DNA from: an uncultured Desulfovibrio sp.
GTDB taxonomy: Bacteria > Desulfobacterota > Desulfovibrionia > Desulfovibrionales > Desulfovibrionaceae
Reading direction: 5' to 3'
NCBI RefSeq assembly: GCF_944324935.1
Contig: NZ_CALUYG010000018.1
Span: forward strand, 1-52,202
Length of the DNA: 52,202 nucleotides
Position 1 is the stretch's first letter. Every line of letters starts with the position of its first letter. Both the position numbers and the translations under genes were made by a program. The notes below the pieces were generated by a model. It had not been told where the DNA came from and made no database searches. It saw only the letters and a list, made by a program, of their open reading frames with translations. Shown in pieces: positions 1,376 to 39,321 of the stretch.

Positions 1376-1517
1376 AGCGTTTTCCTTTAGAAAGGGAAAA
1401 CGCGAGGTGGCGGCACAGCGCCGCCCGGCCCAAACCAAGCGGAAGGATCGCGTTTTTTCCTCGAAACGACAGGCCGTAGGGGATGAAACGCCAAGCGTCT
1501 CACACGGAAAATGTCCC
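1376..1517 (+). repeat. Multi-hairpin intergenic repeat, family 1, copy 1
   Basis: This 142-bp element is homologous to 23097-23238 and, in reverse orientation, to 39177-39321. It starts with a hairpin built on GCGTTTTC and GAAAACGC, followed by the invariant hairpin GGCGGC-ACAGC-GCCGCC, then a run of T-rich sequence and a GAAACGC-type hairpin. This copy has drifted in its last hairpin. It lies upstream of the minus-strand gene starting at 1299. No coding potential is apparent. Confidence 0.85.
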
Positions 1518-1587
1518 AGGGGCTGCCACCACAAATTTTATAAATAATTTCAATGGATATGCAGAATAGTTTGTGCATGTCCCGCGC

Positions 1588-1672
1588 TTTTTGGGGCGGG
1601 CATGCCTCGTGTTCCCGATTCTCCTCCCGGAAAAAGCGCGCTGGGGAAGGGATGGGGGCTTGGGGGAAGGGT
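1588..1672 (+). repeat. Intergenic repeat, family 2, copy A
   Basis: The element shares the motif GGGGCGGGC(A/T)TGCC, an AAAAGCGCGC block and GGGGAAGGGATGGG with a copy near 39591-39673. It shares a weaker version with reverse-orientation copies near 12276-12361 and 45188-45262. Its right end carries CTTGGGGGAAGGG. Together with family-1 copy 1 and the rpsA terminator it fills the gap between 1300 and 1786. Confidence 0.8.
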
Positions 1673-1730
1673 GTGAATAGTGGTGACAGGCCTGTTGCGT
1701 CGGACAGCGGACGGAGCGCGTCGCCGCGAC

Positions 1731-1758
1731 AAAAAAGGGGAGGCCGAAGCCTCCCCTT
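1731..1758 (-). terminator. Intrinsic terminator of rpsA
   Basis: The stem GGGGAGGC/GCCTCCCC encloses a TTCG loop as read on the minus strand and is followed there by six T residues. It begins 28 nt past the rpsA stop codon. The core is shared with the terminator at 125-155. Confidence 0.92.
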
Positions 1759-1786
1759 GCCATATACGCTGTTATCCGCCGGAAGA

Positions 1787-3496
1787 TCAGTTTTCGCTGT
1801 TTTCCTGCGCGGCCTTGAGCAGTTCGCCCAGGCTCTGGCCGGATTCCTGCGGGCCGGCATGGAATTCCTTGGGCTTGCGGCGTTCTTCCTCGTCGCGGAT
1901 CTGCTTGATGGACAGACCGAGGCGGCGTTCTTCGGCGCTGACATGGATGACCTTGGCTTCGATTTCCTGGCCTTCCTTGTACATTTCGGCCGGGGTCTTG
2001 ACCTTCTTGCCCGACAGTTCGGACACATGCACGAGGCCCTCGATGCCTTCTTCCACTTCCACGAAGAGGCCGAAGTCCGTGATGTTGGTGATCACGCCCT
2101 TGACGGTGCAGCCCACGGGGTAGGTGCTGGGCACATGGCCCCACGGATCGTCCACCAGCTGCTTGATGCCGAGGGTGAACTTTTCGTTTTCCTGGTCCAC
2201 GGTGAGGACCTTGGCCTGCACGGTGTCGCCCACCTTGTAGAGTTCGTTGGGGTGGCGCACCTTCTTGGTCCAGCTGATGTCGGAGACGTGGATGAGGCCG
2301 TCGATGCCGTCCTCGATGCCGATGAACATGCCGAATTCGGTGATGTTCTTGATGACGCCTTCCAGGATGGTGCCTTCAGGATACTTTTCGGCCACCAGTT
2401 CCCAGGGGTTGGGACGCACCTGCTTCATGCCGAGGCTGATGCGCTTCTTTTCGCCGTCCACGCCGAGGATGACCACTTCCACTTCATCGCCGGTGTGCAC
2501 CATCTGGGAAGGATGACGCAGCTTGCGGGTCCAGGACATTTCGGAGATGTGCACGAGGCCTTCCACGCCGGGTTCCAGCTCCACGAAGGCGCCGTAGTCC
2601 ACAAGGTTGGTGACCTTGCCGGTGCACTTGGCCCCTTCGGGGAAGCGGGCGGAGATGTCCTGCCACGGATCGGGCACGAGCTGCTTGAGGCCGAGGGAGA
2701 CCTTGTTGTTCTCGCGGTCGAAGGAGAGCACCTTGAGGGTCAGGTCCTGACCCATGGTGATCATTTCCTTGGGATGGCGGATGCGCTTCCAGCTCATGTC
2801 CGTGATGTGCAGCAGGCCGTCGAGGCCGCCCAGATCCACGAACACGCCGTATTCGGTGATGTTCTTGGCCTTGCCGTGCACGATCTGGCCTTCTTCCAGC
2901 GTGCGGAGCAGATCCTGTCGCTTGGAATCGCGCTCCTCTTCCAGCAGGACGCGGCGGGACACGATGACGTTGCTGCGGCGGCGGTTGATCTTGAGCACGC
3001 GGAATTCGAATTCCTGATTGACCAGCGCGTCCATGTCCGGCACGGGGCGCAAATCTACATGGGAGCCGGGCAGGAAGGCTTCCACACCGCCGATGTCCAC
3101 GGTGTAGCCGCCCTTGATGCGGCGCACGATGTGACCCTTGATGACCTGATTGGTCTCCTGCACGTCCTCAAGCTTGTCGAAGACCTGCATGCGCTTGGCT
3201 TTTTCAAAGGAGAGGGTGATGGTGCCTTCGCCTTCGTTCTTGCGAACGACGTACACATCCACCGTATCGCCCACCTTCACGGTCATGTTGCCGGCGGAAT
3301 CACGGAATTCGCTCGCCGGGATCTGACCTTCGGACTTGAAATTCACGTCCACCAGCACATTGTCGTCGTCAACGCGAACGATCTCGCCCTTGACGATGGA
3401 GCCTTCTTCGAGTTCGCCGAAGTCGGTGTTGAGGTAGTTTTCAAGGGCGCTTTCGAAATTCATTTCGTTTTCGTGCCCGGTTTCCTTGTCAGCCAT
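1787..3496 (-). CDS. rpsA: 30S ribosomal protein S1
   Basis: S1 is the largest small-subunit protein; it binds mRNA upstream regions and helps load structured messages. The 569-residue product carries six S1/OB-fold repeats, starting at about residues 31, 115, 199, 288, 375 and 461. The last four share the pattern G-x-V-x-N-I/L-x-(D/E)-(Y/F)-G-x-F-V followed by GL(V/L)H(I/V)S-(D/E)-(I/M)-SW. Length and six-repeat layout match the full-length Gram-negative form. I chose the ATG at 3496 (MADKETG) because GGAGG sits 8 nt upstream; the reading frame continues further upstream but into the promoter. It is monocistronic between a sigma-70-like promoter (3546-3574) and the terminator at 1731-1758. 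A short hairpin lies in the leader. Confidence 0.98.
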   Translation of the reverse strand: MADKETGHENEMNFESALENYLNTDFGELEEGSIVKGEIVRVDDDNVLVDVNFKSEGQIPASEFRDSAGNMTVKVGDTVDVYVVRKNEGEGTITLSFEKAKRMQVFDKLEDVQETNQVIKGHIVRRIKGGYTVDIGGVEAFLPGSHVDLRPVPDMDALVNQEFEFRVLKINRRRSNVIVSRRVLLEEERDSKRQDLLRTLEEGQIVHGKAKNITEYGVFVDLGGLDGLLHITDMSWKRIRHPKEMITMGQDLTLKVLSFDRENNKVSLGLKQLVPDPWQDISARFPEGAKCTGKVTNLVDYGAFVELEPGVEGLVHISEMSWTRKLRHPSQMVHTGDEVEVVILGVDGEKKRISLGMKQVRPNPWELVAEKYPEGTILEGVIKNITEFGMFIGIEDGIDGLIHVSDISWTKKVRHPNELYKVGDTVQAKVLTVDQENEKFTLGIKQLVDDPWGHVPSTYPVGCTVKGVITNITDFGLFVEVEEGIEGLVHVSELSGKKVKTPAEMYKEGQEIEAKVIHVSAEERRLGLSIKQIRDEEERRKPKEFHAGPQESGQSLGELLKAAQENSEN

Positions 3497-3521
3497 CTGC
3501 CATGCCTCCAAACAAATATTT

Positions 3522-3539
3522 CCCTCATATTTTTGAGGG
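3522..3539 (-). promoter_or_regulatory. Stem-loop at the 5' end of the rpsA leader
   Basis: On the minus strand CCCTCA pairs with TGAGGG across a short A/T loop. It lies between the predicted -10 box (3546-3551) and the ribosome-binding site (3505-3509), so the transcript would begin at or next to this hairpin. A 5'-terminal stem could stabilise the message or take part in S1 autoregulation; this is inference. Confidence 0.5.
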
Positions 3540-3545
3540 TGAGCG

Positions 3546-3574
3546 ACCATAGCAGAAATGCAAAGGGAAGACAA
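3546..3574 (-). promoter_or_regulatory. Sigma-70-type promoter of rpsA
   Basis: On the minus strand TTGTCT (3574-3569) and TATGGT (3551-3546) are separated by exactly 17 bp. The predicted start point is about 43 nt before the rpsA ATG. The boxes match the consensus at 4/6 and 4/6 with ideal spacing. Confidence 0.65.
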
Positions 3575-3640
3575 GGGGCGGCAGGCCGTCCGCCCCGCGT
3601 CCGGCGTCTTTTTTCACAGGGATGGCCGCGGTTGGCGACC

Positions 3641-4735
3641 TTATTTCCGGCTGTCCCGCTGCTGCGCCCGCAGGTGGGCTTTGGCGTCGGGATCGCCGTT
3701 TTTGGCGGCCAGCTCGTACCAGCGCTGGGCCTCGCTGAGGTTGGCCTGTACGCCCGTGCCCTGATCGTACATGAGCCCCATGCTGTACATGGCGGCCGCC
3801 TCGCCGTTGTCCGCCGCCTTGCGGTACCATTCCACGGCCTTGGCGTAATCCTGCGGCACGCCGCGCCCCTGTTCGTACATGTAGCCCAGATTATACTGGG
3901 CCTCGGCATAGCCGGCCTCGGCGGCGCGGGTGTACCATTCCACGGCGCGGGCGTTGTCCTGCGCGAAGCCCCGGCCCTCGGCGTACATGAAGGCCAGGTT
4001 GTTCATGGCCTTGACGTGATCCTGCTGCGCGGCCCGCTCGAACCAGTGCGCGGCCTTGGTGTCGCTCTGATTGCTGCCCTTGGCGTTGAGGTAGGTCCAG
4101 CCGAGAGTGTACTGGGCGTCGGCCAGGCCCTGGCTGGCGGCCCGGCCGTACCAGTCGATGGCGTCGTTTTCCCGCTTGGGGACGCCGCGCCCGTGCGCGT
4201 AGAGGTAGCCCAGCGCGAACTGGGCTTCGGCCAGCCCCTGTTCGGCGGCCTTGCGGTACCAGCGTGCGGCCTCCTTGAAGTTGCGTTTGACGCCGCTGCC
4301 GGTGCAAAGGGCCGTGGCAAAGGCGGTCTGGGCGCGCATCTCGCCCTTGTCGGCCGCCTTCTTCAGGAGGATGGCCCCTTGCCTGGCATTCCGCTTGACG
4401 CCCTTGCCCTGCATGGTCAGTTCGCCCAGCACATAGAGGGCTTCCGGGTTCTCGGCCCTGGCCAGCGGTTCCGCCAGATCCGCGGCCCGGGAGAACTCGC
4501 CGGCGTCCAGCGCCTTTTGCACGGCCTGCAGGGCCTTGCCCTGTTCGGCGGCCAGTTTTTGCGCCTCGGGCGAGGGGGCGTTTTCGCCGGCCGTGTCCTG
4601 TGACGCCGTGGCGGCCGCCGGAGCGGCGGGCGCTTTGGCCGGGGCGGCCTGTGGGACGGCGGGCGGCAGGGCCAGCGTCAGACTCAGGAAGAAACACCGC
4701 GCAAGACGCGCGGAAAGGGACGAGGTCATGTTCAT
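3641..4735 (-). CDS. Sel1-repeat (TPR-like) exported protein
   Basis: The product is a 364-residue exported solenoid protein. An N-terminal hydrophobic segment (ARCFFLSLTLALPPAVPQAA, about residues 10-30) fits a signal peptide, followed by an Ala/Pro-rich linker. From about residue 85 to the end there are seven Sel1-like repeats of about 36 residues. They follow the pattern A-x-x-W-(Y/F)-x-(R/K)-A-A-x-x-G-x-A-x-A-Q-x-x-L-G-x-x-Y-x-x-G-x-G-V, for example AARWYRKAAEQGLAEAQFA. Such proteins are scaffolds in envelope or signalling complexes; a partner cannot be read from the context. The ATG at 4735 has GGAG 5 nt upstream; ATG 4729 is an alternative. It lies upstream of and divergent from the EamA gene. 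Confidence 0.9.
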   Translation of the reverse strand: MNMTSSLSARLARCFFLSLTLALPPAVPQAAPAKAPAAPAAATASQDTAGENAPSPEAQKLAAEQGKALQAVQKALDAGEFSRAADLAEPLARAENPEALYVLGELTMQGKGVKRNARQGAILLKKAADKGEMRAQTAFATALCTGSGVKRNFKEAARWYRKAAEQGLAEAQFALGYLYAHGRGVPKRENDAIDWYGRAASQGLADAQYTLGWTYLNAKGSNQSDTKAAHWFERAAQQDHVKAMNNLAFMYAEGRGFAQDNARAVEWYTRAAEAGYAEAQYNLGYMYEQGRGVPQDYAKAVEWYRKAADNGEAAAMYSMGLMYDQGTGVQANLSEAQRWYELAAKNGDPDAKAHLRAQQRDSRK

Positions 4736-4970
4736 GTATGCTCCGAAAGGCCGTGCCGTCAGGGAAGAGGGCGGCCGCACGGCAAGGACCGGCCCTTGCC
4801 GAGCCTAGCCGCTTCATCGTCAAAAGGGAAGAGCCGGCGCGGCCGGTTCCCCCGCAGGGCTGACGGACGCATTGACGCCGGCGTCCCCTGCGGCTAGGGT
4901 CGCCTGACCGGCGGCAGACCGCCGGCGGGGCCTTCCGCCCCGGGAAAGCGCCTTGCGGGGGAGGGAGAAC

Positions 4971-5870
4971 ATGCGGGAAGCGGCAGCCGGATACGGCATG
5001 GCCCTGCTGGCCACCGTCATCTGGTCGGGCAATTTCGTGGTGGCGCGGGCCGTGGCGGACATGATCCCGCCCTGGCAGTGCAATTTCTGGCGCTGGGCCG
5101 TGGCCTTCGTGGTCTGTCTGCCCTTCGCCTGGCGGCATATCCGGCGGGATGCGCCCCTGTTGCGCCGCCACTGGCGTTACGTCTCGCTCATGGCGCTGCT
5201 GGGCGTGTCGCTTATGAATACCTTTTTCTACAAGGCCGGACAGACCACGCCCAGTCTGAACATGGCCCTCATCGCGCCCACGGCGCCGGTCATCATCCTG
5301 CTCCTGTCCCGCATCATCTACGGCGAACCCATCAGCCCCCGCCGTCTGGCGGGCATGTGCGTGGTCATGGCGGGCATCGTGGTGCTGGTCAGCCGGGGCG
5401 ACTGGCAGCGGCTGGCGGGCCTGCGCTTTGCCGGCGGCGATCTCTGGTCGCTGGGCGGGGCGCTGAGCTTCGGGCTGTATTCGCTGTTCATGCGCTCGCG
5501 GCCGGCCGGGCTGTCCACGCTGGGGTTCTGCGCGACGACCTTCGGGCTGGGGAGCCTGTTCTGTCTGCCCGCCGTCCTGGCCGAGATGGCTTTTCTGCCG
5601 CCCGTGGACTGGAGCCGGGAGGTCGTGATCGGCATCCTCTACGCGGGCGTGGGCTGTTCCTTCGTGTCTTTCAGTCTCTGGACGCGGGCCATTGCCGGCA
5701 TCGGGCCGGTACGGGCCGGCATCGTGTATTATTCCCTGCCGCTCTATGCGGCGCTGGCCGCCTGGCTGGTGCTGGGGGAGGCGGTGACCGCCGCGCAGGC
5801 GGTGGGCGGGCTGCTCATCGTGGGCGGCATCGTGACGGCCACCCTGCAGACGCACAGGACGCCATCCTGA
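4971..5870 (+). CDS. EamA/DMT-family transporter
   Basis: This 299-residue integral membrane protein belongs to the drug/metabolite transporter superfamily. It has ten predicted helices arranged as two EamA repeats; the first opens with GYGMALLATVIWSGNFVVAR and the second starts near GGDLWSLGGALSFGLYSLFM. The conserved end of the second repeat, with a Gly-rich last helix (VGGLLIVGGIVTATL), is present. Substrate cannot be assigned from sequence; relatives export amino acids, nucleosides or metabolites. The ATG at 4971 follows a GGGGGAGGGAG stretch; a TTG at 4953 is in frame but less likely. It is 18 nt upstream of rdgB and probably co-transcribed. Confidence 0.93.
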   Translation: MREAAAGYGMALLATVIWSGNFVVARAVADMIPPWQCNFWRWAVAFVVCLPFAWRHIRRDAPLLRRHWRYVSLMALLGVSLMNTFFYKAGQTTPSLNMALIAPTAPVIILLLSRIIYGEPISPRRLAGMCVVMAGIVVLVSRGDWQRLAGLRFAGGDLWSLGGALSFGLYSLFMRSRPAGLSTLGFCATTFGLGSLFCLPAVLAEMAFLPPVDWSREVVIGILYAGVGCSFVSFSLWTRAIAGIGPVRAGIVYYSLPLYAALAAWLVLGEAVTAAQAVGGLLIVGGIVTATLQTHRTPS

Positions 5871-5888
5871 TCTTATGAGGAGGAGAAC

Positions 5889-6518
5889 ATGACGACGTGC
5901 GAACAGGTGGTCCTTGCCACCAGCAATGCCGGCAAAGTGCGGGAACTGGCCGGACCGCTGGGCGCCCTGGGGGTGAGGGTGCTCGGGCTGGACGGCTTCC
6001 CCGGGCTGGGCGACATCGTGGAGGATGGAGACAGCTTCGAGGCCAATGCCCTTATCAAGGCGCGGGCCGTGGCCGCCCACACCGGGCTTGTCAGTATCGC
6101 CGACGATTCCGGCCTGGAAGTGGACGCCCTGCACGGCGCGCCGGGCATCCATTCGGCCCGCTATGCCGACGACTGGGAATTTCTTGCCGGAGAAAGCCGG
6201 GACGCGCGCAACATCCGCAAGCTGCTGCATGCCCTGCGCGATGTGCCCGAGACGGCGCGGGGCTGCCGTTTCGTCTGCTGCATGGCCGTGGTCTTCCCGC
6301 CGTCGTTGGGCGGACGGGAATGGACCGTGCGCGGGATATGGGAAGGGCGTCTGCTCACGACCCCCCGCGGAGAGAACGGCTTCGGCTACGATCCGGTGTT
6401 TTGGGACCCCGGGCTGGGGCGCGGCGCGGCCGAGCTCTCCCGCGAGGAAAAGATGGCCCGCAGCCACCGTGGCAGGGCCCTGCGGGCCCTGCTGGACGTC
6501 TGGCCGGGCAGGCCCTAA
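5889..6518 (+). CDS. rdgB: XTP/dITP diphosphatase (RdgB/HAM1 family)
   Basis: The enzyme hydrolyses non-canonical purine nucleotides (ITP, dITP, XTP) to monophosphates and pyrophosphate, keeping them out of nucleic acids. The N-terminal nucleotide-binding signature VLATSNAGKVREL (residues 8-20) is present, as are SIADDSGLEVDAL with the catalytic Asp near residue 74, GAPGIHSARYA, and the C-terminal GENGFGYDPVF and SHRGRALRAL motifs. The length of 209 residues is usual for the family. Start at 5889 follows GAGGAGGAGA. It is the second gene of a two-gene unit behind the EamA transporter. Confidence 0.95.
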   Translation: MTTCEQVVLATSNAGKVRELAGPLGALGVRVLGLDGFPGLGDIVEDGDSFEANALIKARAVAAHTGLVSIADDSGLEVDALHGAPGIHSARYADDWEFLAGESRDARNIRKLLHALRDVPETARGCRFVCCMAVVFPPSLGGREWTVRGIWEGRLLTTPRGENGFGYDPVFWDPGLGRGAAELSREEKMARSHRGRALRALLDVWPGRP

Positions 6519-6598
6519 ATATTTGCCGGGATACGCCGTTAGGAACAAAAGATACATGCGGCGAGAGCGTCCCTGAGGCGTGTCCTGGGTGGTGTCCT

Positions 6599-6614
6599 TG
6601 GCGCGGATCTTGCA
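6599..6614 (+). promoter_or_regulatory. Sigma-54 (-24/-12) promoter of fliD
   Basis: The sequence TGGCGC-N5-TTGCA agrees with the consensus TGGCAC-N5-TTGCW, with the invariant GG and GC exactly 12 bp apart. It lies 69 bp before the fliD start codon in the 164-bp gap after rdgB. Class-II/III flagellar genes of polar-flagellated bacteria are commonly RpoN-dependent, so fliD-fliS are probably switched on by an FlrC/FleQ-type activator. Confidence 0.8.
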
Positions 6615-6682
6615 AAAATGCTTTGCCGGGAAAGTCTTTCCCGGGGAACGCCTACCGTCTTTTACTATCAAGCGAGGTCGCC

Positions 6683-9600: not shown

Positions 9601-9724
9601 GCGTATCTCGCTTTGGGAAGAGCGACAGAAGGCGGCATTTGCCCGGCTGGAGACCCTGCTTGCCCAGTATAATAAGACGCAGACAGCCCTTGAGAGCCAG
9701 ATCGGTCAGTTGAGCGGCAGTTAA
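6683..9724 (+). CDS. fliD: Flagellar filament cap protein FliD (HAP2), long form
   Basis: FliD forms the pentameric cap at the tip of the flagellar filament and folds exported flagellin subunits. The 1013-residue product starts with a heptad-rich FliD_N region (SIYYSGLSGSGTDW, then a helix of about residues 25-75). It ends with the FliD_C domain from about residue 645 and a C-terminal coiled coil (ENERISLWEERQKAAFARLE). Between these ends lie about five copies of a module of roughly 100 residues, starting near 133, 233, 326, 446 and 548. Each has the pattern beta-strand, D/N-G, T-(V/I)-(T/S)-(I/L), then (T/S)-x-x-(D/E)-(L/F)-(V/L)-x-x-(I/L)-N. Many FliDs are 450-550 residues, so the middle is strongly expanded. 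The ATG at 6683 has GAGG upstream. The reading frame is open further upstream, but that part overlaps rdgB and is noise. Confidence 0.95.
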   Translation: MSSSISGSIYYSGLSGSGTDWTQTLEQLKQIESIQLNRLKAWQDDWNLRYQAFGKIIEAAQSTKSQIATLKNRDNFVSKLVTSSDDSVVTGTANSNAQDMQHTINVKQVASNSVWANKHVFSSKNDIINGTDHAVDFKFTYGGKTVSISIPPNTTLDSFVSLVNNSKDNPGITVSTVKTSGGYLFQVAGQDTGEENNLVIYNCDLTGMSAAGTSSSWSTSKEVDLGEVLTDPSDFVFDLVYDNGTKKSITISGASTLNDLVSAINSQTGRSIASLDSSGNLKLDGVQSFKRRESSEDADVPPSVKVYAGTQDDMDELLVPGGTGATELTFNVEVDKGLGYTSTISVTVKDNVTREEFLATLAQATGNTANMSMDDDGRWYMSLAGVENITPVGGSGSMPSGITVEQVAATGNAEDFDAGTTTTFDTTLTFTKDKLTNQLSDADPPKELVYTFTMKDGTTKTVTIDSNKTNEELLNAINQAMGGSIVTESNGDKTLKLADVRGMTLTQGYVSDQGYSATVNAEMTIQANSVAPQPGSGGNGSGLLETPPQLEYTVVKNDGSEVKVTLASGSTMQDVVDELERQLGAGNVSVDSEGKLVVKDIVSLTGPGITGQITDSDNWNIKQSANAIYTVDNWPMELESESNSVTDVIEGVTFNIQSVGEATINVNTDVDALQESVQTFLDAVNSLLVTVQTFTAYDENAETTSTDPDDDNYSMSQLTSQKGGLLQGNYGVQLFNSRFKSVLSGTPAGYQGRTSADDILSGDLLANLANLGIKTDTDQKSETYGQLVIAPSSGIGSLQDLDKENYNTMLTENMEAVVDFFCGPSTPGTSTTNAFRYASSVQGITQAGTYDVSYEVDSAGNILEVYINGVKASNDPSMGSNYYSCPSGDARGLSIIIDDLSPGTHEGQVRIKYGLLDTVDNFLKQELTWQDTGSSIDDDSLAIKSQNGALMILQDNYKTIMENIQDKIDRENERISLWEERQKAAFARLETLLAQYNKTQTALESQIGQLSGS

Positions 9725-12142: not shown

Positions 12143-12173
12143 GGGCGTCGGGTCTGTTGACGCGAGTCGCTGT

Positions 12174-22029: not shown

Positions 22030-23097
22030 ATGGTCAATCTGCTCGATCTTACGCTCCCGGAGCTGACGGACTGGATGCAGCAAGAGCTGGGGGAGCCCCG
22101 CTTCCGCGCCGTGCAGGTCTGGCAATGGCTCTGGCAGCGCATGGCCCGCGACGTTGACGAGATGACCAACGTCTCCAAAGCCTGCCGGGCCCGTCTTGCC
22201 CAGTGCGCGACCATCGCCTGGCCGGAAGTGACACGCGTGCAGGAAAGCCGCGACGGCACGACCAAGTTCCTCCTGCGCCTTGCCGACGGGGCGGAAGTGG
22301 AGACCGTGCTCATCCCCTCGGAGTCCCGGGACGGCAGCCGCCGCTGGACGCAGTGCGTGTCCTCTCAGGTGGGCTGCGCCATGGGCTGCACCTTCTGCAG
22401 CACGGGGACGATGGGCTTTGAACGCAACATGCGTATGGGCGAGATACTGGGTCAGATCCTCGTGGCCCGCGCCCATCTGGGTGACAACCGGCCGGACTGG
22501 CCCATCCTGCGTAATCTCGTCTTCATGGGCATGGGCGAGCCGCTGCTGAATCTGCGCGAGGTCATGCGGGCGCTCCAGAGCCTCAATGACGACAGGGGCC
22601 TCAACTTCTCGCCGCGGCGCATCACCGTCTCCACCTGCGGCATCGAAAAGGGCCTGCGCGAGCTGGGCGAAAGCGGCCTGGCCTTTCTGGCCGTTTCGCT
22701 GCATGCGCCAACGCAGGAGCTGCGGGCGCGCATCATGCCCAGGGCGGCACGCTGGCCGCTGGAGGAGCTGCTGGCCGCCCTTAAGTCCTATCCGCTGAAG
22801 ACACGGGAACGCATCACCTTTGAATACCTGCTGCTGGGCGGCGTCAACGACGGGCCGGAACACGCGCGGGAACTGGCGCGCATCGTCAGCGACATCAAGG
22901 GCAAGCTCAACCTCATCGTCTACAATCCCGCCGAGAACGCCCCCTACGAAGCCCCCACGCCGGAGCGGGTGCTGGCCTTTGAGAAGATGCTCTGGGATCG
23001 TCACATCACGGCCATCATCCGCAAGTCCAAGGGGCAGGACATCAAGGCCGCCTGCGGTCAGCTCAAGGCCGCGCAGGCCGAGCGCCGTCCCGCATAG
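22030..23097 (+). CDS. rlmN: 23S rRNA (adenine-2503-C2)-methyltransferase
   Basis: RlmN is a radical-SAM enzyme that methylates A2503 of 23S rRNA and A37 of some tRNAs. The 355-residue product has the N-terminal RlmN helical domain (GEPRFRAVQVWQWLWQRMARDVDEMTNVSK region). The cluster motif is CAMGCTFCSTG (Cys-x3-Cys-x2-Cys, near residue 117). GMGEPLLN and TVSTCGI signatures follow, and the two catalytic Cys equivalents are expected at CVSSQVGC and near the C-terminus (KAACGQL). The stop overlaps the start of a family-1 repeat. It is translationally close to the HD-domain gene, so both are one unit. Confidence 0.97.
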   Translation: MVNLLDLTLPELTDWMQQELGEPRFRAVQVWQWLWQRMARDVDEMTNVSKACRARLAQCATIAWPEVTRVQESRDGTTKFLLRLADGAEVETVLIPSESRDGSRRWTQCVSSQVGCAMGCTFCSTGTMGFERNMRMGEILGQILVARAHLGDNRPDWPILRNLVFMGMGEPLLNLREVMRALQSLNDDRGLNFSPRRITVSTCGIEKGLRELGESGLAFLAVSLHAPTQELRARIMPRAARWPLEELLAALKSYPLKTRERITFEYLLLGGVNDGPEHARELARIVSDIKGKLNLIVYNPAENAPYEAPTPERVLAFEKMLWDRHITAIIRKSKGQDIKAACGQLKAAQAERRPA

Positions 23098-23238
23098 GGC
23101 GTTTTGCCTGTGAAAAAGGCGGAACGCGGTCGGCGGCACAGCGCCGCCCGTCGAAATCAGGCGGAATGACCGCGTTTTTCCGTGAAACGCCAGGCTGTAT
23201 GGTGTGAAACGCGGAGCGTTTCACACTGAAAATGCCCT
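23097..23238 (+). repeat. Multi-hairpin intergenic repeat, family 1, copy 2
   Basis: This is the best-ordered copy. Its ends are imperfect inverted repeats (AGGGCGTTTTGCCTGTGAAA against AGGGCATTTTCAGTGTGAAA, 16 of 20). Inside are the invariant GGCGGC-ACAGC-GCCGCC hairpin, a CGGAA/TTCCG stem, and a perfect 11-bp stem GTGTGAAACGC/GCGTTTCACAC (23202-23226). It begins at the rlmN stop codon and may act as its transcript end. The remaining 140 bp to the next gene show nothing further. Confidence 0.9.
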
Positions 23239-23381
23239 AATGCGCGAAGACGCGGACTTGCCCCGCCGTCTCGCGTCTCCTCGCCTCACTGCCTCGTGAA
23301 GCAGGTCTTTCCCGGCGTTCATGCTGTCGCCCCAGAGGAGGGGAGGATGTCTTTCTCCCGCCGACTGAGTTATTTCGCTTC

Positions 23382-31004: not shown

Positions 31005-31032
31005 CCCGCGCCGGCTTTGATCGGCACGATGC

Positions 31033-31056
31033 AATGGGGAGCTTGCTCCCCATTTT
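31033..31056 (+). terminator. Intrinsic terminator of ilvD
   Basis: AATGGGGAGC pairs with GCTCCCCATT around TT and is followed by two further T. The stem is strong and the T-tract short. Confidence 0.75.
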
Positions 31057-31118
31057 GCGTCCGCGGGCAGGCGGGCCGTTTGTGGACGATAAAATACGGT
31101 AAATATTGTCCGAAAGGC

Positions 31119-31145
31119 TCAACTTTGCCAAAAAGCCGTCGATAA
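31119..31145 (+). promoter_or_regulatory. Sigma-28 (FliA) promoter of the first chemoreceptor
   Basis: TCAACTTT-N11-GTCGATAA matches TAAAGTTT-N11-GCCGATAA at 6/8 and 7/8 with the required 11-bp spacing. It lies 126 bp before the ATG at 31272. Chemoreceptor genes are typical class-III flagellar targets. Confidence 0.75.
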
Positions 31146-31271
31146 GGCGGACAGAGTCCCTATTTTTTTCTTCCGTACGCTTGACTGGCCCCCCCTGCTT
31201 CTCAGCAGCCCTCGTGCGCGATGCGGAAACTGGTTCGCTTGATGTTTTAACGATCCCCTGAGAGGCTGTCC

Positions 31272-33365
31272 ATGAAACTGAAACTGCAAGGCAGGATGAT
31301 TCTTTTTATTCTGGTGCCCGCCCTGCTGGGGCTGTGCGTCCTTGCCGGTATGTGCTATTCCAGTTCCGCCCGGGCCATCTACAATCAGATCAGCAAGGAC
31401 GCGCCGGTGGTGCTCGATACCCTCAAGATCGGTATCGACAACTTCTTCACCACGTTGCGCCAGGGCATGTACATGCCGGTGGAAAACCAGCGCATCACCT
31501 ATTTTCTGGAAGCGCATGAAGCCGGCGTGAAGGGCAGCGAGCTCAAAACCTATTTTGACAGCGCCAATGAGTCTCTGCGCCATTACATCGGCGTGACCAG
31601 CGCCATCAATACCTGCGGGGTGGTGGTCAAGGACGGTACGGTGGTGCTGCACCGCGTTTCCGGCCGGGACGAGCCGGGCAATCTGCTCGGCAAGAACATG
31701 GGCGACCGTCCCTACATCCAGTCCGGCCTGCAAAACAAGGAAAGTCTCGGCACCTACAAGAGCCGCGCCACCGGCGAGACGACAACCATCGTCAGCCTGC
31801 CCATCCGCCTGGACAAGACGGTCATCGGCGTTTTTTACGCGGGTATGAACAACATCCGGCTCAGCCGGAACATCCTCGGCGCTGTCAGGATGGGCGAATT
31901 CGGCGCGGCCTATGTCTATAATCCGCAGGGCGAGGCCATCATGCACAGCGATCCCGCGCGCATCGGCACTGACGAAAGCGCGCTGCCGCATGTGCGGGAA
32001 ATGCTGACGAAGAAGGAAGGTTCGCTGGAGTACGTCAACAAGGAAGGCTTCACCAAGATCGTCTATTATGAGACCATGCCCACCGAGGGCTGGCTCATCT
32101 GCGTGGAGCTGGACAAGAACGAAGTCATGCAGCCCGCCCACGACCTGCTGATCAATGTGCTGGCGCTGATGGTCGCGCTGGCGCTGGTGGTCGGCGCCAT
32201 CATCCTGGTCACCGCGCGGGGTATCGCCCGTCCGCTGCGCGTCTGCTCCGAACTGGTGGAGCATGCCTCCAAGGGCGACCTGGAGACCACGCCGGCGGAA
32301 GATCTGGAGCTCGGCAAGGCTGAACGGCGCGGGGATGAGATCAGCATCCTGGCGCGTGGCATCCGCGAAATGGTGCAAAACATCAAGCGCCTGCTCCAGG
32401 AAAGCGAGGGCAAGGCTTCCGAAGCCCTCAAGGCGACGGAAGAAGCCAGGGCCGCCACGGCCCGCGCCGAAGAGGCCGCCAAGCGCGCCGAAAATGCCAG
32501 GCGTGAGGGCATGTACGCCGCCGCCACCGAGCTCGAGGAAGTGGTGAGCATCATCACCTCGGCCTCCACGCAGCTTTCCGTCCAGATCGAACAGTCCGAC
32601 CGCACGGCTTCCGATTCGGCGCAGCGCCTTTCCGAAGCGGCCACGGCCATGAATGAAATGAACGCGACCGTTCAGGAAGTGGCGCGCAACGCCTCCGACG
32701 CCTCCAAGATGTCCGCCGAAACGCGCAGCAAGGCCGAGCAGGGCGCCGTCGTGGTGCAGCAGGCTGTGGACAGCATCGAAAAGGTGCAGGAGGTGGCCGA
32801 GGTGCTGCGGACGGACATGCAGCAGCTCAACGAGCACGCCCGTTCCATCAACGCCATCATGAGCGTCATCTCGGACATCGCGGATCAGACCAACCTGCTG
32901 GCGCTCAATGCCGCCATCGAGGCGGCGCGCGCGGGCGAAGCCGGAAGAGGCTTTGCCGTGGTGGCCGACGAGGTGCGCAAGCTGGCCGAAAAGACCATGG
33001 CCTCCACTTCCGAGGTGGGCAGCGCCATCAGCGCCATCCAGCACAGCACCACCAAGAGCATGGAAGGGGTGGACAAGGCCGTGGCCCAGATCGGCCAGGC
33101 CACGGAGCTTTCCAGCCAGTCCGGCGTGGCCCTGCACGAGATCGTCACCGATGCCGAGACCACAGCCGACGCGGTGCGGGCCATAGCGGCGGCCAGCGAG
33201 CAGCAGTCCGCCGCCAGCGAGGAAATCAATCAGTCCATCGTGCAGGTCAACGACCTGTCCGACAAGACGGCGCAGGCCATGCGCGAGGCGGCGCAGGCGG
33301 TATCATCCCTGGCGGCGCAGGCGCAACATCTGGAGACGCTCATCGAGGACATGAAGCGGCAGTAA
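31272..33365 (+). CDS. Methyl-accepting chemotaxis protein with Cache sensor (receptor 1)
   Basis: The 697-residue receptor has helix 1 ([20 protein letters not shown], residues 12-31) and a periplasmic Cache-type sensor of about 260 residues ([38 protein letters not shown]). Helix 2 ([19 protein letters not shown]) follows, then a HAMP domain ([25 protein letters not shown]) and a long coiled-coil signalling domain. The CheA/CheW-binding hairpin tip with [19 protein letters not shown] lies near residues 540-560. No CheR-docking pentapeptide is present at the C-terminus (LIEDMKRQ). The signalling half is nearly identical to that of receptor 2. It has its own sigma-28 promoter and terminator. 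Confidence 0.95.
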
Positions 33366-33369
33366 GCCG

Positions 33370-33408
33370 AAGGCCTCCCGCATGCCGGGCATGCGGGAGG
33401 CCTTTTGC
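33370..33408 (+). terminator. Intrinsic terminator of receptor 1
   Basis: The 16-bp arms AAGGCCTCCCGCATGC and GCATGCGGGAGGCCTT enclose a 3-nt loop, with TTTT at the end. The remaining 280 bp before the sigma-28 site at 33695 shows no gene that I can support. Confidence 0.85.
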
Positions 33409-33694
33409 TTTTTGCGGTCGTGGAGGGAACCTGACACGGCCCTGGCCGCCCGCTGCCGCATGCTCCCTGCCGGAGGTCATCCCGGGGATGTGCGGTGGCG
33501 GAGGGCTTTTTTTGTCCCGGGAGAGGCGCGGGGCATCCCCCGGGCCGGCTTGCGCTCACAGGCGAAATGAGGCAAGAGTGCGGTGACGCCGTCATTGCCC
33601 GTGCCAGCCCGCAGCGGCCGTCGCGCGGCGCTCCTGCACGCGCGGCACAGGCGCGGCGCGGCGGCGAAACTGGCGCAAGCGACGGCGCGACACC

Positions 33695-33721
33695 TAATAT
33701 TCGTCCCTTTCGCGCCGATAA
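33695..33721 (+). promoter_or_regulatory. Sigma-28 (FliA) promoter of cheW and receptor 2
   Basis: TAATATTC-N11-GCCGATAA has a perfect 8/8 -10 element, a 5/8 -35 element and the exact 11-bp spacing. It lies 44 bp before the cheW ATG. The downstream gene class agrees. Confidence 0.8.
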
Positions 33722-33764
33722 AGCAACAGATGCCTGTGATCATAACGGCTTGCTTGGAGGATAT

Positions 33765-34229
33765 ATGAGCCAGGAAATTTCCCGTGAAGACGGTCTCCTG
33801 CAACTGGTGACCTTCCATATCGGCGAGGAAGAGTTCGGGGTGGACATTCTGGCCGTGCAAGAGATCATCCGCATGATGCAGATAACCCCGGTGCCGCGCG
33901 CTCCCGTCTACATCGACGGCGTCATCAATCTGCGCGGCAAGGTCATCCCCGTTGTCAACATGCGTTCGCGCTTCAGTCTGCCGGTGCAGGAACCGACGCC
34001 GCAAACGCGTATCGTGGTCATGGAATTCGACCAGAAGATCGTGGGCTTCCTCGTCGATGCCGTTTCCGAGGTGCTGCGCATCCCCTCGTCCACGGTGGAG
34101 GATCCGCCACCGGTGGTGGCCGGCATCGGCTCCGAGTACATCCGCGGCGTCGGCAAACTGGACGAGCGCCTGCTCATCCTGCTTGACCTTGACCGCCTGA
34201 TGTCGCATCTGGATATCGACAGTCTCTGA
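33765..34229 (+). CDS. cheW: Chemotaxis coupling protein CheW
   Basis: CheW bridges receptors and CheA kinase. The 154-residue single-domain protein shows [23 protein letters not shown], then [26 protein letters not shown] (NLRG signature near residue 61), and later [14 protein letters not shown] and [22 protein letters not shown]. Start at 33765 has TTGGAGG upstream; frames upstream of this are noise. It sits between the two receptors, sharing a promoter with receptor 2, so it may serve these receptors. Confidence 0.96.
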
Positions 34230-34239
34230 TTGCGAGGAG

Positions 34240-34261
34240 GACACTCGCGCTGAGGAGTGTC
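34240..34261 (+). promoter_or_regulatory. Small hairpin between cheW and receptor 2
   Basis: GACACTC (34240-34246) and GAGTGTC (34255-34261) pair around an 8-nt loop. No T-run follows directly. It may attenuate or process the cheW-receptor transcript. Confidence 0.35.
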
Positions 34262-34296
34262 GTCATCTTTCCCCCCTTTCGCAAAAGGATGTCTCC

Positions 34297-36375
34297 ATGA
34301 AACTTTTTACGAAAATGACGCTTACCATCCTCTGTCCGGCGCTGATCGGTCTGATCATCCTGGGCGGCGTGAGCTACCGCAACGCCTCCTCAGCGCTGAT
34401 GGAGCAGATCGAGAACGATATCCCCACCCTGCTCGTGGCGCAGGAGATCGGCACGGAGATGCTGTTCAGGACGCTGCGGCAGGGCATGGAGATGCCCGCC
34501 CAGAACATCCGCATCCTGGAAACGCTGCGCTTCTATGCCAACGGCATCAAGGACGAGCAGGACATCGCCGATGTGGATTCCCTGCTGGCCCATTACATCA
34601 AGACGACGACGGGCATCGCCATTTGCGGCCTCGTGGCGCCCGACGGGATCATGCTGGGCTGCCGCAATGATGCCGACGATGCCCCCGACAAGCTCAGGGA
34701 CAGCAATGTGGCGGACCGTGAGTACGTCAAGGCCGGACTGGCGGGCAAGGCCAGCATCGGGACCTACAGCAGCAAGGAGTCGGGCAGGCTGAGCACCATC
34801 GTGGGCGTTCCCGTGAAGGACGGCAACGACTATGTGGGCGTGTTCTTCGCTGGCCTGGACAACGCCCAGTTGTCACAGCTGCTGCTGGGACGCATCAAGG
34901 CCGGCAACAAGGGCCGGGCCTATGTGTACAGCGCCTCCGGCGAAGTCATCCTGCACAGCGACACGTCGCAGCTCGGCCGCAACGATGCCGCTGCCGAACA
35001 GTTCAAGGCCATGCAGGGCAAGGAAGCCGGGCGCATCGAATTCACCACGGCCGACGGCGACGCCAAGATCCTTTATTTCCGCCTCATGCCCAGCGAAAAC
35101 TGGTACTGCTGCATCGAGCTCGACGAAACGGAAACACTGGCCAGGATACACACGCTGCGTGCGATCATCATCGTGCTGGCCGTGGGCCTGGCCCTGCTGG
35201 TGTCGGCCATCATCTTCGTCATGGCGCGCGGCATCACGCGGCCGCTGGGCGTCTGCTCCCGTGTGGTGGAGCAGGCGGCGCGCGGCGATCTGGATCTTTC
35301 CGCCGAGACCAGCGCGGCCCTGGATCAGGCGACGCGGCGCGGCGATGAGATCAGCGTCGTGGCCCGCGGCGTGCGGCACATGATGGACGGCATCCGGCGT
35401 CTGCTCGGCGAGAGCGAGGCCAAGACCCGGGAGGCTCTCAAGGCGACCGAAGAGGCCAGGGCCGCCACGGAACGCGCCGAAGAGGCGGCCAGGCATGCCG
35501 AGCTCGCCCGGCGCGACGGCATGCAGAGCGCGGCCAACCAGCTCACGGAAATGGTGGACGTCATCTCCGCGGCGGCCACCCAGCTCTCGGCCCACATCAG
35601 CCGCTCGGACGTGACGGCCTCGGAGTCGGCGCAGCGCCTTTCCGAAGCGGCCACCGCCATGAATGAGATGAACTCCACCGTACAGGAGGTGGCCCGCAAC
35701 GCTTCCGCCGCGTCGGAAATGTCCGCCGAGACCCGGCACAAGGCCGAAGACGGTGCCGCCGTGGTGCAACAGGCGCTGGTGAGCATCCAGGAAACGCAGC
35801 AGCAGACCCTTCGCCTCAAGGACGACATGCACCAGCTCAACGAGCACGCCCGTTCCATCAGCGCCATCATGGGCGTCATCTCGGACATCGCGGATCAGAC
35901 CAACCTGCTGGCGCTCAATGCCGCCATCGAGGCGGCACGCGCGGGCGAGGCCGGCCGCGGCTTTGCCGTGGTGGCCGACGAGGTGCGCAAGCTGGCCGAA
36001 AAGACCATGGCCTCCACCTCCGAAGTGGGCAATGCCATCAACGCCATCCAGCAGAGCACGGCAAAGAGCATGGACGGCGTGGACAAGGCCGTGGAGCAGA
36101 TCGATCAGGCCACGGAGCTGGCCAACAAGTCCGGCAAGGCGCTTACCGATATCGTCTCCGATGCGGAGACCACCGCCGACGAAGTGCGCGCCATCGCCAC
36201 GGCCAGCGAGGAACAGTCCGCCGCCAGCGAAGAGATCAATCAGTCCATCGTGCAGGTCAACGATATGTCCACGGAAACGGCGCAGGCTATGGCCCAGGCC
36301 GCCCAGGCCGTGAACAATCTGAGCGAGCAGGCCAGGCGGCTGGAGCAGCTCATCAACGATATGAAGGCCGGCTAG
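34297..36375 (+). CDS. Methyl-accepting chemotaxis protein with Cache sensor (receptor 2)
   Basis: The 692-residue receptor is a paralogue of receptor 1 with the same order: helix 1 ([19 protein letters not shown]), a periplasmic Cache-type sensor ([36 protein letters not shown]), helix 2 ([20 protein letters not shown]), HAMP ([24 protein letters not shown]) and the signalling coiled coil with hairpin tip [19 protein letters not shown]. Sensors of the two proteins differ clearly, so ligands probably differ. The C-terminus (LINDMKAG) has no CheR-docking motif. The ATG at 34297 has AAAGGA upstream. It is co-transcribed with cheW. Confidence 0.95.
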
Positions 36376-36396
36376 GACAAGCCTGCCGGAACGAAC

Positions 36397-36421
36397 AGGG
36401 CGGCGCAGGCCGCCCTTTTTT
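36397..36421 (+). terminator. Intrinsic terminator of cheW-receptor 2
   Basis: AGGGCGGC pairs with GCCGCCCT around GCAG, followed by six T. It is 22 bp after the stop. Confidence 0.93.
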
Positions 36422-36526
36422 ATGGGCGCATATCCGTTCGCGCGGTCGTACGGGGAACAGACAAGGCTTGCTCCCGGGGCTTTTAGAGGATATGCAGGTA
36501 TCCATTCCATCCGTCTGGAGGACAGT

Positions 36527-37672
36527 ATGCAACTGCGTCTATCGCGCTCCATCGTGGGCGTCTCCGAAGCCGAAGCCGTGCGCCGCGTCATCGAGGAGGA
36601 CGGCTATCTGGGCATGGGGGCCGAGACCCGTCGCTTTGAGGAAGAGCTGGCCGCCTGGCTCGGCGTGGAACCGTGGCAGGTCATCACCACCAATACGGGG
36701 ACGGCGGCCCTGACGCTGGCCGTGGACAGTCTCTTTGCCGACAGCCGCCTGCCGGAGCGCGGCGGAGCGCTGCCCAAGATACTCGTGCCTTCGCTGACCT
36801 TCGTGGCCTCCTTCCAGGCCATCGTGGCGGCCGGCTGCCAGCCTGTCGCCTGCGACGTGCTGCCGCAGACCGGCACGCTGGATCTGCGCGACGCCGAGAG
36901 ACGCCTGGACGGCGACGTGGTGGCCATCATGCCGGTACACTATGCCAGCAACCCCTGGCATCTTGACGACGTCCACGATTTTGCCCGTCACAAGGGTCTG
37001 CGCGTCATCGAGGACGCGGCCCATGCCTTGGGCTGCCGCCATCACGGCCGGAAGATCGGCAGTTTCGGCGACCTCGTCTGCTTCAGCTTCGACGGCATCA
37101 AGAACATCACCAGCGGCGAGGGCGGCTGCCTTGTGGCCTTCGACCGGGAGAGCGCGCAGCGGGCCGCCGACGCCCGTCTGCTGGCCGTGGAGGGAGACAC
37201 CCGCTCCCGCTACGCCGGCACGCGCACCTGGACGCCGGACATCAAGCGCCTTGGCTGGCGCTTCCACCTCAGCAACATCATGGCCGCCATCGGACGCGTG
37301 CAGCTTGCCCGCCTGGAGCCGGAGTTCATCCCTGCCCGCAGGGAGCTTGCGGCCCGCTACGCCGCGCAGCTCGGCGACGTGCCGCATCTGGCCCTCCTCG
37401 AGACCGACCCCGCCGACTTCATCGTCCCGCACATCCTGCCCGTCCGCGTGCTGGACGGCCGCAAGGACGCCTTCAAGGAGGCGCTGGCGGCACGCGGCAT
37501 CCCCACCGGCGTGCATTACAAGCCCAACCATCTGCACAGCTTTTTTGCCGCGCCATCACTGCCCGTGTGCGAGCGGCTCTATGCCGAACTGGTGACCTTG
37601 CCGCTGCATCCCGGTCTGAGCCACGAGGACGTGGATGCCGTCTGCCGCGCCGCGCGCGAGGCCCTGATCTGA
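36527..37672 (+). CDS. DegT/DnrJ/EryC1-type sugar aminotransferase
   Basis: This PLP enzyme family converts ketosugar nucleotides to amino sugars used in LPS or flagellin glycans. The 381-residue product has TTNTGTAALTLAVDSLF (PLP phosphate loop, near residue 62), LVPSLTFVASFQAI, VIEDAAHALGCRHHGRKIGSFGD (the Asp that pairs with the pyridine nitrogen), and FSFDGIKNITSGEGG with the PLP-binding Lys. The tail HPGLSHEDVDAVCRAAREAL is typical. The ATG at 36527 has GGAGG upstream. It is 19 bp before the GtrA-glycosyltransferase gene and forms a two-gene unit. Confidence 0.92.
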   Translation: MQLRLSRSIVGVSEAEAVRRVIEEDGYLGMGAETRRFEEELAAWLGVEPWQVITTNTGTAALTLAVDSLFADSRLPERGGALPKILVPSLTFVASFQAIVAAGCQPVACDVLPQTGTLDLRDAERRLDGDVVAIMPVHYASNPWHLDDVHDFARHKGLRVIEDAAHALGCRHHGRKIGSFGDLVCFSFDGIKNITSGEGGCLVAFDRESAQRAADARLLAVEGDTRSRYAGTRTWTPDIKRLGWRFHLSNIMAAIGRVQLARLEPEFIPARRELAARYAAQLGDVPHLALLETDPADFIVPHILPVRVLDGRKDAFKEALAARGIPTGVHYKPNHLHSFFAAPSLPVCERLYAELVTLPLHPGLSHEDVDAVCRAAREALI

Positions 37673-37691
37673 CGCCGCCCAAGGAGACGAT

Positions 37692-39161
37692 ATGACTTCG
37701 GATGAATACCGCCGCCTTATCCGCTCCCTGCTGGCCCGGCGCTGGGTCCGCTTCTGCCTTGTGACCGGCCTGACCGCCCTGATCTACATCCTGCTGGGCG
37801 CGCTGCTGGTGCAGGCCTGGGGCTGGCCGCTTCTGCTGGGCAATGCGGCGGCCTATGTGCTCAGCCTGCTGGTGTCCTACTGCGGCCAGTGTCGCTGGAC
37901 GTTCCAGCCTGTGGGACGTCTGCACCGGGCGATGGCCTTGCGCTTCCTCGGCGTGCAGGTGGGGGGGCTGCTGCTGAACTCGGTGCTGATCTGCCTGCTG
38001 ACCTGGCTGCTGGGCCTTTCCTACGGGCTGGCCATGCCGATCGTCAGCATCCTTGTGCCGGTCACGCTCTATCTGCTGTGCCGTTTCTGGGTCTTTCGTT
38101 CCTGCGGGGCCCCGGCCGTCGCCGCAACGGACCCGCGCTTCCTGCCGCCGGCCGATGCCGGGCAGCACCTTGCCGATACGCCCCCCGGCGATCCGCCCCG
38201 CGTATCGGTGATTATGAACTGTCTGAACAGTGCCGACAAGCTGGAAGAGAGCCTGCGCTGTCTGGCCGCCCAGACCTTCACCGACTTCGAGGTCATTTTC
38301 TGGGACAACGGCTCCACCGATCAGAGCCCGTTCATCGCCCAGGCCTTTGCCCCCCTGCGCGGGCGTCTGCGCTACTTTCGCGGCGAAGAGACCGTGCCGC
38401 TCGGCGCGGCGCGCAATCTGGCCCTGCGTGAGGCGCGTGGCGAATATATCGCCTTCCTCGACTGTGACGACCTGTGGCGGCCGGAAAAGCTGGCGGCCCA
38501 GGTGGAAATTTTTGATGCCTTCCCGCAGGTGGGCCTTGTCTGCACGGATACGGAGATCTTCGACGGCAGGCGGGTGCTCCGGCGCATCTTCGCGCATACG
38601 CGGCCCGTGGACGGCATGGCTTTTGCCGAGCTCATGCGGCGGCAGTGGATCTCCATGTCCTCGGCCATGCTGCGCCGCGGCGCGCTGGAATCGCTCGCTC
38701 CCATGCCGTCGGACGGCAGCGCCCCGCCCTGGTTCGACGAAAGCCTCAACGTCTGCGAGGAGGCGGACCTCTTCTACCGTATCGCCCATGACTGGGAGCT
38801 GGCTCATGTGGATGCTCCGCTCACGCTCTGGCGCGTCCACGGCATGAACACGACCTTTCGCAAGTTCTCGCAGTTCGCCGACGAGACCCTGTGCATCCTG
38901 GAAAAGCATTGCCGCATCTATCCCGGCTATGAGGAGGAGCATGCCGATCTGGTGGACCTGCTGAGCCGTCGCGCCGCCTTCCAGCATGCCGTGGCCCTCT
39001 GGCGTGAGGGCAAGGGCAAACAGGCGCGCGAGCTGCTGGCTCCCTTCGGGCTCACGTCTTTCAAGCACCGTCTGTTCTATGCGGCGAGCTTTTTGCCGGG
39101 CGGCTGCTTCGATCTGGCGGCAAAGCTCTATTTCGCTCTGCCGTCCCTGCTGCGGCGTTAG
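37692..39161 (+). CDS. GtrA-like membrane domain fused to a GT2 glycosyltransferase
   Basis: Residues 1-137 are a GtrA-like four-helix membrane domain (RWVRFCLVTGLTALIYILLGALLV; QCRWTFQPVG; YLLCRFWVF). After a short Pro/Ala linker, residues 168-395 are a family-2 glycosyltransferase: VSVIMNCLNSADKLEESLRCL, DFEVIFWDNGSTDQS, LGAARNLALREARGEYIAFLDCDD (DCDD as the metal-binding DxD). A helical C-terminal region follows. GtrA helps translocate lipid-linked sugars, so both steps may be joined. In the fusions I know, GtrA is usually C-terminal. Start at 37692 has AAGGAG 7 nt upstream. Alternative: two proteins joined in frame only in this lineage. Confidence 0.88.
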   Translation: MTSDEYRRLIRSLLARRWVRFCLVTGLTALIYILLGALLVQAWGWPLLLGNAAAYVLSLLVSYCGQCRWTFQPVGRLHRAMALRFLGVQVGGLLLNSVLICLLTWLLGLSYGLAMPIVSILVPVTLYLLCRFWVFRSCGAPAVAATDPRFLPPADAGQHLADTPPGDPPRVSVIMNCLNSADKLEESLRCLAAQTFTDFEVIFWDNGSTDQSPFIAQAFAPLRGRLRYFRGEETVPLGAARNLALREARGEYIAFLDCDDLWRPEKLAAQVEIFDAFPQVGLVCTDTEIFDGRRVLRRIFAHTRPVDGMAFAELMRRQWISMSSAMLRRGALESLAPMPSDGSAPPWFDESLNVCEEADLFYRIAHDWELAHVDAPLTLWRVHGMNTTFRKFSQFADETLCILEKHCRIYPGYEEEHADLVDLLSRRAAFQHAVALWREGKGKQARELLAPFGLTSFKHRLFYAASFLPGGCFDLAAKLYFALPSLLRR

Positions 39162-39176
39162 AGGCCGTCTCAGTAT

Positions 39177-39321
39177 GAGAGCATTTTCAGTTTGAAACGT
39201 GTTGCGTTTCAAACCATACGGCCTGTCGTTTCGCGGAAAAAACGCGGTTTTTCCGCTCACTTTGGGCCGGGCGGCGCTGTGCCGCCGCCTCGCGTTTTAC
39301 CTTTTTCAAAGCTAAAACGCC
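39177..39321 (-). repeat. Multi-hairpin intergenic repeat, family 1, copy 3
   Basis: In reverse orientation this 145-bp copy aligns with the other two throughout. It has GCGTTTTA/TAAAACGC as first stem, the invariant GGCGGC-ACAGC-GCCGCC hairpin, a GCGGAAAAA/TTTTTTCCGC stem and GTTTGAAACG/CGTTTCAAAC as last stem (39190-39214). It starts 15 bp past the stop of the GtrA fusion. Confidence 0.88.

Follow-up and report, generated by a model that had tools for sequence, protein, structure and literature searches.

The 52,202-nucleotide stretch of DNA analyzed here (referred to as the window), from an uncultured Desulfovibrio sp., carries three full-length copies of a dispersed repeat that was assigned to the miniature inverted-repeat transposable elements (MITEs). 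The element measures about 144 bp plus a duplicated TA and is too short for a transposase gene. Copy 1 (1373-1518, plus strand; 139.8 bits with the covariance model described below) lies between two minus-strand genes, and both its terminal inverted repeats (TIRs) and its TA are eroded (TGGAGC...GTCCCA). Copy 2 (23095-23239, plus strand; 136.5 bits) has retained both ends with the TA (TAGGGC...GCCCTA). Copy 3 (39177-39325, minus strand; 165.9 bits) starts 15 nt past the stop codon of a gene that terminates at 39161 and is oriented against that gene, and an orthologous copy was found at the same place in the relative G068 (L112:17395-17542). These model-based borders include the flanking TA and are a few bases wider than those of the original prediction, whose three full copies were all present and whose quoted stems were recovered letter for letter: the first stem pair is GCGTTTTC/GAAAACGC in copy 1 and GCGTTTTA/TAAAACGC in copy 3, and the last is GTGTGAAACG/CGTTTCACAC in copy 2 and GTTTGAAACG/CGTTTCAAAC in copy 3. 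A further stretch on the minus strand (39455-39520), earlier called a remnant, reads like a copy with an internal deletion, and G068 is about 115 bp shorter there; it gave no match to the covariance model even at E≤10, so its descent from the MITE is plausible but unproven.

The element was found to be a chain of hairpin modules, in which P1 holds the left TIR, P5 holds the inner part of the right TIR, and P2 to P4 stand between them. In copy 2, the left TIR and the target TA occupy 23095..23105, and the gene at 22030-23097 uses the TAG at 23095-23097 as its stop codon. P1 (23099..23127), whose 5' arm is the left TIR, was placed by the consensus structure of 35 copies; the minimum-energy fold of copy 2 alone differs from this placement. 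P2 (23132..23148) reads GGCGGC-ACAGC-GCCGCC, P4 (23161..23183) sits within the P3 stem (CGGCC...GGCCG) of the consensus, P5 (23202..23226) reads GTGTGAAACGC-GGA-GCGTTTCACAC, and the right TIR with its TA follows at 23229..23239, all of them on the plus strand.

The copies of the window are members of a large family. A BLAST search with copy 2 against its own genome (a draft assembly of 2,709,544 bases in 89 contigs, 99.8% complete) gave 40 strong matches at E≤2.3e-16 and 45 at E≤10 (40 of the 82 candidates scored), which shows that the repeat is not due to chance. The covariance model was built from 35 full copies among these 40, the five with a replaced 5' end being omitted, and it produced 135 matches at E≤1 in the same genome, reverse-strand echoes included (150 of 2365 candidates scored). 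From this genome, 80 loci were fetched and examined, and the copies proved to be eroded. When 61 genomes were searched, 17 of them (the own genome included) gave a match, all 17 of the same genus, to which 37 of the 61 belong; none of the 24 genomes from other genera matched. In a survey of the order with stricter filters, in which divergent copies may be missed, matches appeared in 19 of 199 genomes (own included) and in 2 of 43 genera, both of them in the family of the window. A pattern scan of named genomes, covering 80 of 119 stretches and keeping 132 matches at E≤1e-20, yielded among the matches listed Desulfovibrio metagenome-assembled genomes (MAGs), a 'Desulfovibrionaceae bacterium' and one Mailhella MAG. 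These 132 copies and the 80 from the own genome formed a set of 212; the 20 loci of G022 were left out of it, this apparently being the same genome as one already among the named records. The relatives G002, G017 and G025 gave 122, 51 and 53 model matches, and 20 copies were fetched from each. The whole window had no match in Rfam 15 at the gathering score, and the element was not named in any of the titles and abstracts searched, a body of literature with subscription journals mostly outside its scope.

The manner of insertion was read from the ends of the element and from its empty sites. The TIRs have the form TAGAGC(A/G)TTT(T/C).../...AAAATGCTCTA. In G022, where the 20 fetched copies are mostly near-identical, a TA stands at both ends around GAGC...GCTC in 15 of the 20, with differing flanks. 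Two clean pairs of filled and empty sites were obtained. In the first, G022 is filled and G020 is empty with CTGT-TA-ATACAG intact (94.7% identity over 209 bp); in the second, G073 is filled and G022 is empty with GTTC-TA-ATG intact (94.6% over 242 bp). The TA was duplicated in both. The window was also tried as an empty site for a copy of G068 (L111:6155-6301) and was discarded, the alignment being too poor. Among insertions with intact ends outside stop codons, the target preference was Y-TA-R, with a pyrimidine at -1 in 36 of 45 and a purine at +1 in 34 of 45. Some copies adjoin or nest at the end TA of another copy (L157, L168, L353, L392 and others); their right flank starts with GAGC and thus adds to the purine preference on that side. 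In G017, 7 of the 20 fetched copies (L355, L357, L361, L362, L363, L365 and L371) lie inside the loops of terminator-like hairpins that are nearly identical to one another (GGGGGAGGAGACCCTTTT-TA-AAAGGGTC..CCCCC), and because of these seven copies hairpin loops may be preferred targets.

A candidate partner transposase was detected in the relatives. Matches to DDE_3 (IS630-type) transposases were found in genomes of the genus (22 of the 61), but none was detected in the assembly of the window's own genome, itself one of the 61, where the copies have the appearance of eroded orphans. The DDE_3 genes of G022 and G073 each lie inside a unit of about 995 bp bounded by TAGAGC.../...GCTCTA. The gene of G073 is an open frame of 326 aa whose protein has DDE_3 and helix-turn-helix domains, and G022 holds a related copy with a longest frame of 210 aa. 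Read inward, the right end of this insertion sequence (IS) is TAGAGCGTTTCAACTTTGAAATG in G022 and ...CACCTTTGAAATG in G073, and MITE left ends with both spellings are present in G022. The G022 IS right end equals the G022 MITE left end over about 21 bases, with a mean of 17.6/18 for five copies. Similar outer ends were observed on units in G002, G025 and G016. In G073, one terminal TA of the IS630-type transposon (L123:1396-2388) also belongs to an adjacent MITE (L123:2387-2531). Another DDE_3 match, more distant and lying in a frame that is open over about 280 aa, was recorded at L134 (G020:C172), G022:C84 and G073:C140.

The TA duplication at empty sites and the IS630-type transposon with the same ends bore out the MITE alternative of the original prediction. 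The repeats are very probably non-autonomous MITEs, which an IS630-family DDE transposase would move in trans by cut-and-paste into TA dinucleotides; the identity of this mover is suggested by the shared ends of the sequences compared.

The covariation of the stems was analyzed in two alignments, one of 35 copies from the own genome and another of 36 copies from several type-A families. In the former, 89.9% of the pair cells were paired, and double-sided changes were found in 45 cells as compared with 19.6±4.0 in shuffles, chiefly in P1, P5 and the terminal pairs. In the between-species alignment, 95.3% of the pair cells were paired and 38 of the 47 pairs had changed on both sides (23.2±1.8 in shuffles, with none of 500 shuffles as high); its covariation was 0.462, as against 0.134±0.008 in shuffles and at most 0.082 with slid partners. 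This second alignment was fitted to the structure and is biased towards it; nonetheless, the stems are readable directly. The correlated stem changes proposed earlier were thus confirmed, overwhelmingly so between species.

The variants of each module agreed with this. P4 mostly reads GCGGAAAAA/TTTTTCCGC, GCCTGAAAA/TTTTCAGGC or GCGTCCAGA/TCTGGACGC, P3 is mostly CGGCC/GGCCG or CGCGC/GCGCG, and P5 has 15 distinct arm pairs. The second hairpin, described at first as invariant, is identical in all three copies of the window but not across the wider family, and P2 has two possible registers. A second type of the element (G017, G010, G023 and G021) has P3 as a local hairpin. In G002, otherwise similar copies carry different P4, P2 or P5 modules (for example, P4 as GCCTGAAAA/TTTTCAGGC in some and GCGTCCAGA/TCTGGACGC in others), which indicates that the modules move as blocks. 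When one copy per genome was folded without constraints, hairpin chains of the same general plan were obtained in most of the 16; taken singly, copies often had the two ends paired instead of P1 at minimum energy, or showed other departures. Pairing is kept across the genus while the letters of the stems are replaced or whole modules are swapped.

Pairing may have been kept because elements that fold would survive and spread better as mobile units, with copies eroding largely free after landing, an explanation that we regard as possible, though short of probable. The simplest cause would be that mRNA or single-stranded DNA tolerates an insert that folds locally; local folding would also hold each TIR in its own hairpin rather than letting the two pair with each other. 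A doubtful competitor is mutational maintenance, in which template switching between hairpin arms corrects imperfect palindromes and gives paired changes without selection, and recombination among copies swaps the modules. The near-symmetric mismatches reported below and the block-wise swapping fit such a process, as does the comparison of 31 close copy pairs, in which 8 stem changes were two-sided when 1.8 were expected (4 being Watson-Crick to Watson-Crick). Nevertheless, 86 changes in these same pairs were one-sided, which does not have the look of quick correction, and the process leaves unexplained both the genus-wide persistence of the module order and the one-strand purine-rich loops of the larger families.

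The position of the copies relative to genes, predicted by a codon model that had been trained on the window, revealed a second property of the family. Only 1 of the 212 copies lies inside a gene, and the commonest distance to an upstream sense gene was -3, the stop TAG consisting of the target TA and the G of GAGC. Many copies occupy a stop codon exactly and restore it as TAG, and most of these are in sense orientation. According to the gene caller, 36 of the 212 copies form a stop with the left end and 5 with the right end; a direct frame test gave 36 left and 8 right (p=2.5e-5), and counting by flank clusters gave 34 left and 6 right of 154. The excess was replicated in G002, G017 and G025, where the stems differ (20 left and 4 right of 60, p=0.0015), although many right ends in G025 read CTATA and are unable to form TAG, which inflates the bias there. 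The genome G034 was left out of the stop-codon count. No such excess was found farther downstream: copies beyond the stop numbered 79 left and 77 right, a split that differs from the one at stop codons (Fisher 1.2e-5), and those up to 40 nt past it numbered 6 left and 12 right, which, if anything, points in the opposite direction. The target preference was considered as the cause of the excess and rejected: Y-TA-R, as estimated from 45 or 70 non-stop insertions, predicts a left:right ratio of 0.77-1.65.

Two comparisons illustrated the outcome for the protein. In the pair of G073 and G022, the insertion went into a native TAA, the stop being TAG in G073 and TAA in G022, and the 60-residue protein tails differ by one residue (L for F) and reach the same end point. 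In the window, copy 2 forms the stop of the gene at 22030-23097; the orthologous gene of G067 has its final residue at the same place, followed by TGA. The earlier statement that two copies follow directly after stop codons was accordingly modified, since copy 2 itself supplies the stop and copy 3 begins 15 nt beyond one. Insertions into stop codons would be harmless and so would accumulate.

The sense orientation raised the question of whether the structure acts as RNA. Such a portable 3' untranslated region would have its plus strand transcribed as the 3' terminus of the gene upstream, its hairpins would protect or end the mRNA, sense copies would be selected and the stems would covary for RNA folding. 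Apart from the excess at stop codons, loops of the plus strand were richer in purines in the five sets with at least 20 copies, of the distinct loops 12 of 76 on the plus strand and 5 of 84 on the minus strand were GNRA tetraloops (p=0.07), and the plus strand folded better in 98 of 132, 18 of 20, 16 of 20 and 13 of 20 copies in four sets. A parallel exists in the orientation-dependent effect of ERIC on upstream mRNA reported for yersiniae (PMC2229807). On the other hand, selection of the plus strand as RNA in each copy should make G-U pairs exceed A-C mismatches, and no clear preference was obtained: the G-U:A-C counts were 113:82 (ratio 1.38, 95% row bootstrap 1.00-1.94) and 182:148 (1.23, 0.99-1.52), and the distinct mismatch types were nearly equal (41:39 and 45:42). 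An asymmetry of about 2:1, the impression given by the RNAalifold output, was not upheld by the full count and was set aside as proof of RNA selection. Furthermore, stop-codon copies were not better paired than the others (0.903 against 0.918 for 10 and 25 copies, and 0.953 against 0.946 for 22 and 110), the sense excess is confined to the stop itself, the plus strand folded better in just 40 of the 80 copies of the window's genome, four single-copy families had more purines in the minus-strand loops, and Rfam gave no match. We therefore consider this explanation rather unlikely, and of the structured RNA 3' element first suggested, the sense excess and the purine-rich loops remain in favor, while the mismatch symmetry and the Rfam result speak against it. 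We take these data to mean that the structure is maintained in the mobile source; a single-strand polarity is suggested but not proven. It is improbable that the five-hairpin fold is the only cargo of the element, its stems serving as interchangeable cassettes that pairing alone holds throughout a genus, and its sense docking at stop codons, restored as TAG, allowing it to spread as a portable gene 3' end.

The original prediction had also offered a bacterial interspersed mosaic element (BIME). In the form considered here, a REP/BIME mobilized by a Y1 (RAYT) transposase, this has a negligible probability and was rejected: the repeat is palindromic, intergenic and present in many copies, but the own genome had no Y1_Tnp match in a search that was positive in 5 of 14 control genomes, and the TIRs and the clean TA duplication contradict it.

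Several observations weigh against an IS630-mobilized MITE whose fold is kept for its mobility. The link between IS and MITE rests on shared ends and a shared target, and the ends are less alike in other relatives than in G022 (11-15/18 between IS and co-resident MITE in G002, 10-11/18 in G025). A third site pair, site B (L118:2097-2242), was not a clean empty site. The mobilizer of the window's copies is deduced from relatives, and a transposase may have been lost in a gap of the draft assembly. In the own genome, P1 varies by 16% and P2 to P4 by 6-9%, which a uniform neutral decay would not give. Templated hairpin correction could create paired changes, of which the close copies show some excess, and selection acting on mobility is something that we infer. 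Finally, the Y-TA-R preference does not predict that sense copies should be in excess at stop codons.

Other repeated sequences were noted in the window. A second dispersed repeat (with a core like CATCCCTTCCCCAGCGCGCTTT...GGGGCGGG..GCCTCGTG) adjoins several MITE copies, at 1523-1671 and about 39540-39650 of the window, and also appears in the flanks of other loci such as L009, L037, L272 and L297; it probably joins 47 of the 212 MITE copies into one flank-similarity cluster. Within 32178-36366, the neighboring long genes at 31296-33365 and 34297-36375 are alike, and each matches the G068 orthologue of the other with about 78% DNA identity.

The element belongs to a known kind because it is an IS630-type MITE, and it was compared with described families, all comparisons below being limited to what the cited accounts state. 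One of the closest was RUP of Streptococcus pneumoniae, of 107 bp, with TIRs like those of IS630-Spn1 and a TA target (PMC2229807, PMC3049150). Both are non-coding, of about 100-150 bp, mostly intergenic and folded, with IS630-type TIRs and a TA target. RUP and BOX are described as tightly folded with their TIRs hybridized to each other (PMC3049150), whereas in the Desulfovibrio MITE each TIR can pair inside its own hairpin, three more stems stand between them, and the stem sequences are replaced between species with the pairing kept. ERIC/IRU, of 127 bp in enterobacteria (PMC2229807, PMC10969869, PMC2267715), shares a TIR, a terminal TA, the target duplication, the folding and an orientation-dependent effect on upstream mRNA, but it is given as a single long stem-loop (PMC2267715) as against the five modules found here, a contrast of descriptions and not of sequences. 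Correia/NEMIS of Neisseria is likewise a MITE with a TIR, a terminal TA and stable stem-loop transcripts; its TIRs are of 24 bp, and a multi-module hairpin chain is not part of its description in that source (PMC2229807). CIR of Caulobacter/Brucella also has separate hairpin arms with a linker instead of one end-to-end stem, but is described with two arms and a conserved GANTC motif and with no TIR given (PMC2229807). BOX of S. pneumoniae resembles the element in its modular, folded parts and differs in its size of 67-637 bp, its variable number of modules and its suggested partner ISSpn2 (PMC3049150).

MITEs are usually regarded as decaying deletion products, in which the fold is a consequence of the inverted ends. 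In the Desulfovibrio MITE it is the fold itself that persists: letters and whole modules are exchanged and the pairing stays. The element is thus an unusual variant of the IS630-type MITE, an exchangeable chain of hairpin modules conserved by pairing and with a sense-directed docking at stop codons. For Desulfovibrio genomes, the repeat family, its covariance model and the candidate partner transposase are now available. At the level of sequence, docking at stop codons is a means of inserting without altering the protein; that it is so one-sided poses a concrete puzzle. The family also offers a usable test case for the role of structure in the passenger of a DDE transposon, whether it serves mobility, makes the insert tolerable in mRNA or arises as a by-product of mutation in hairpins.

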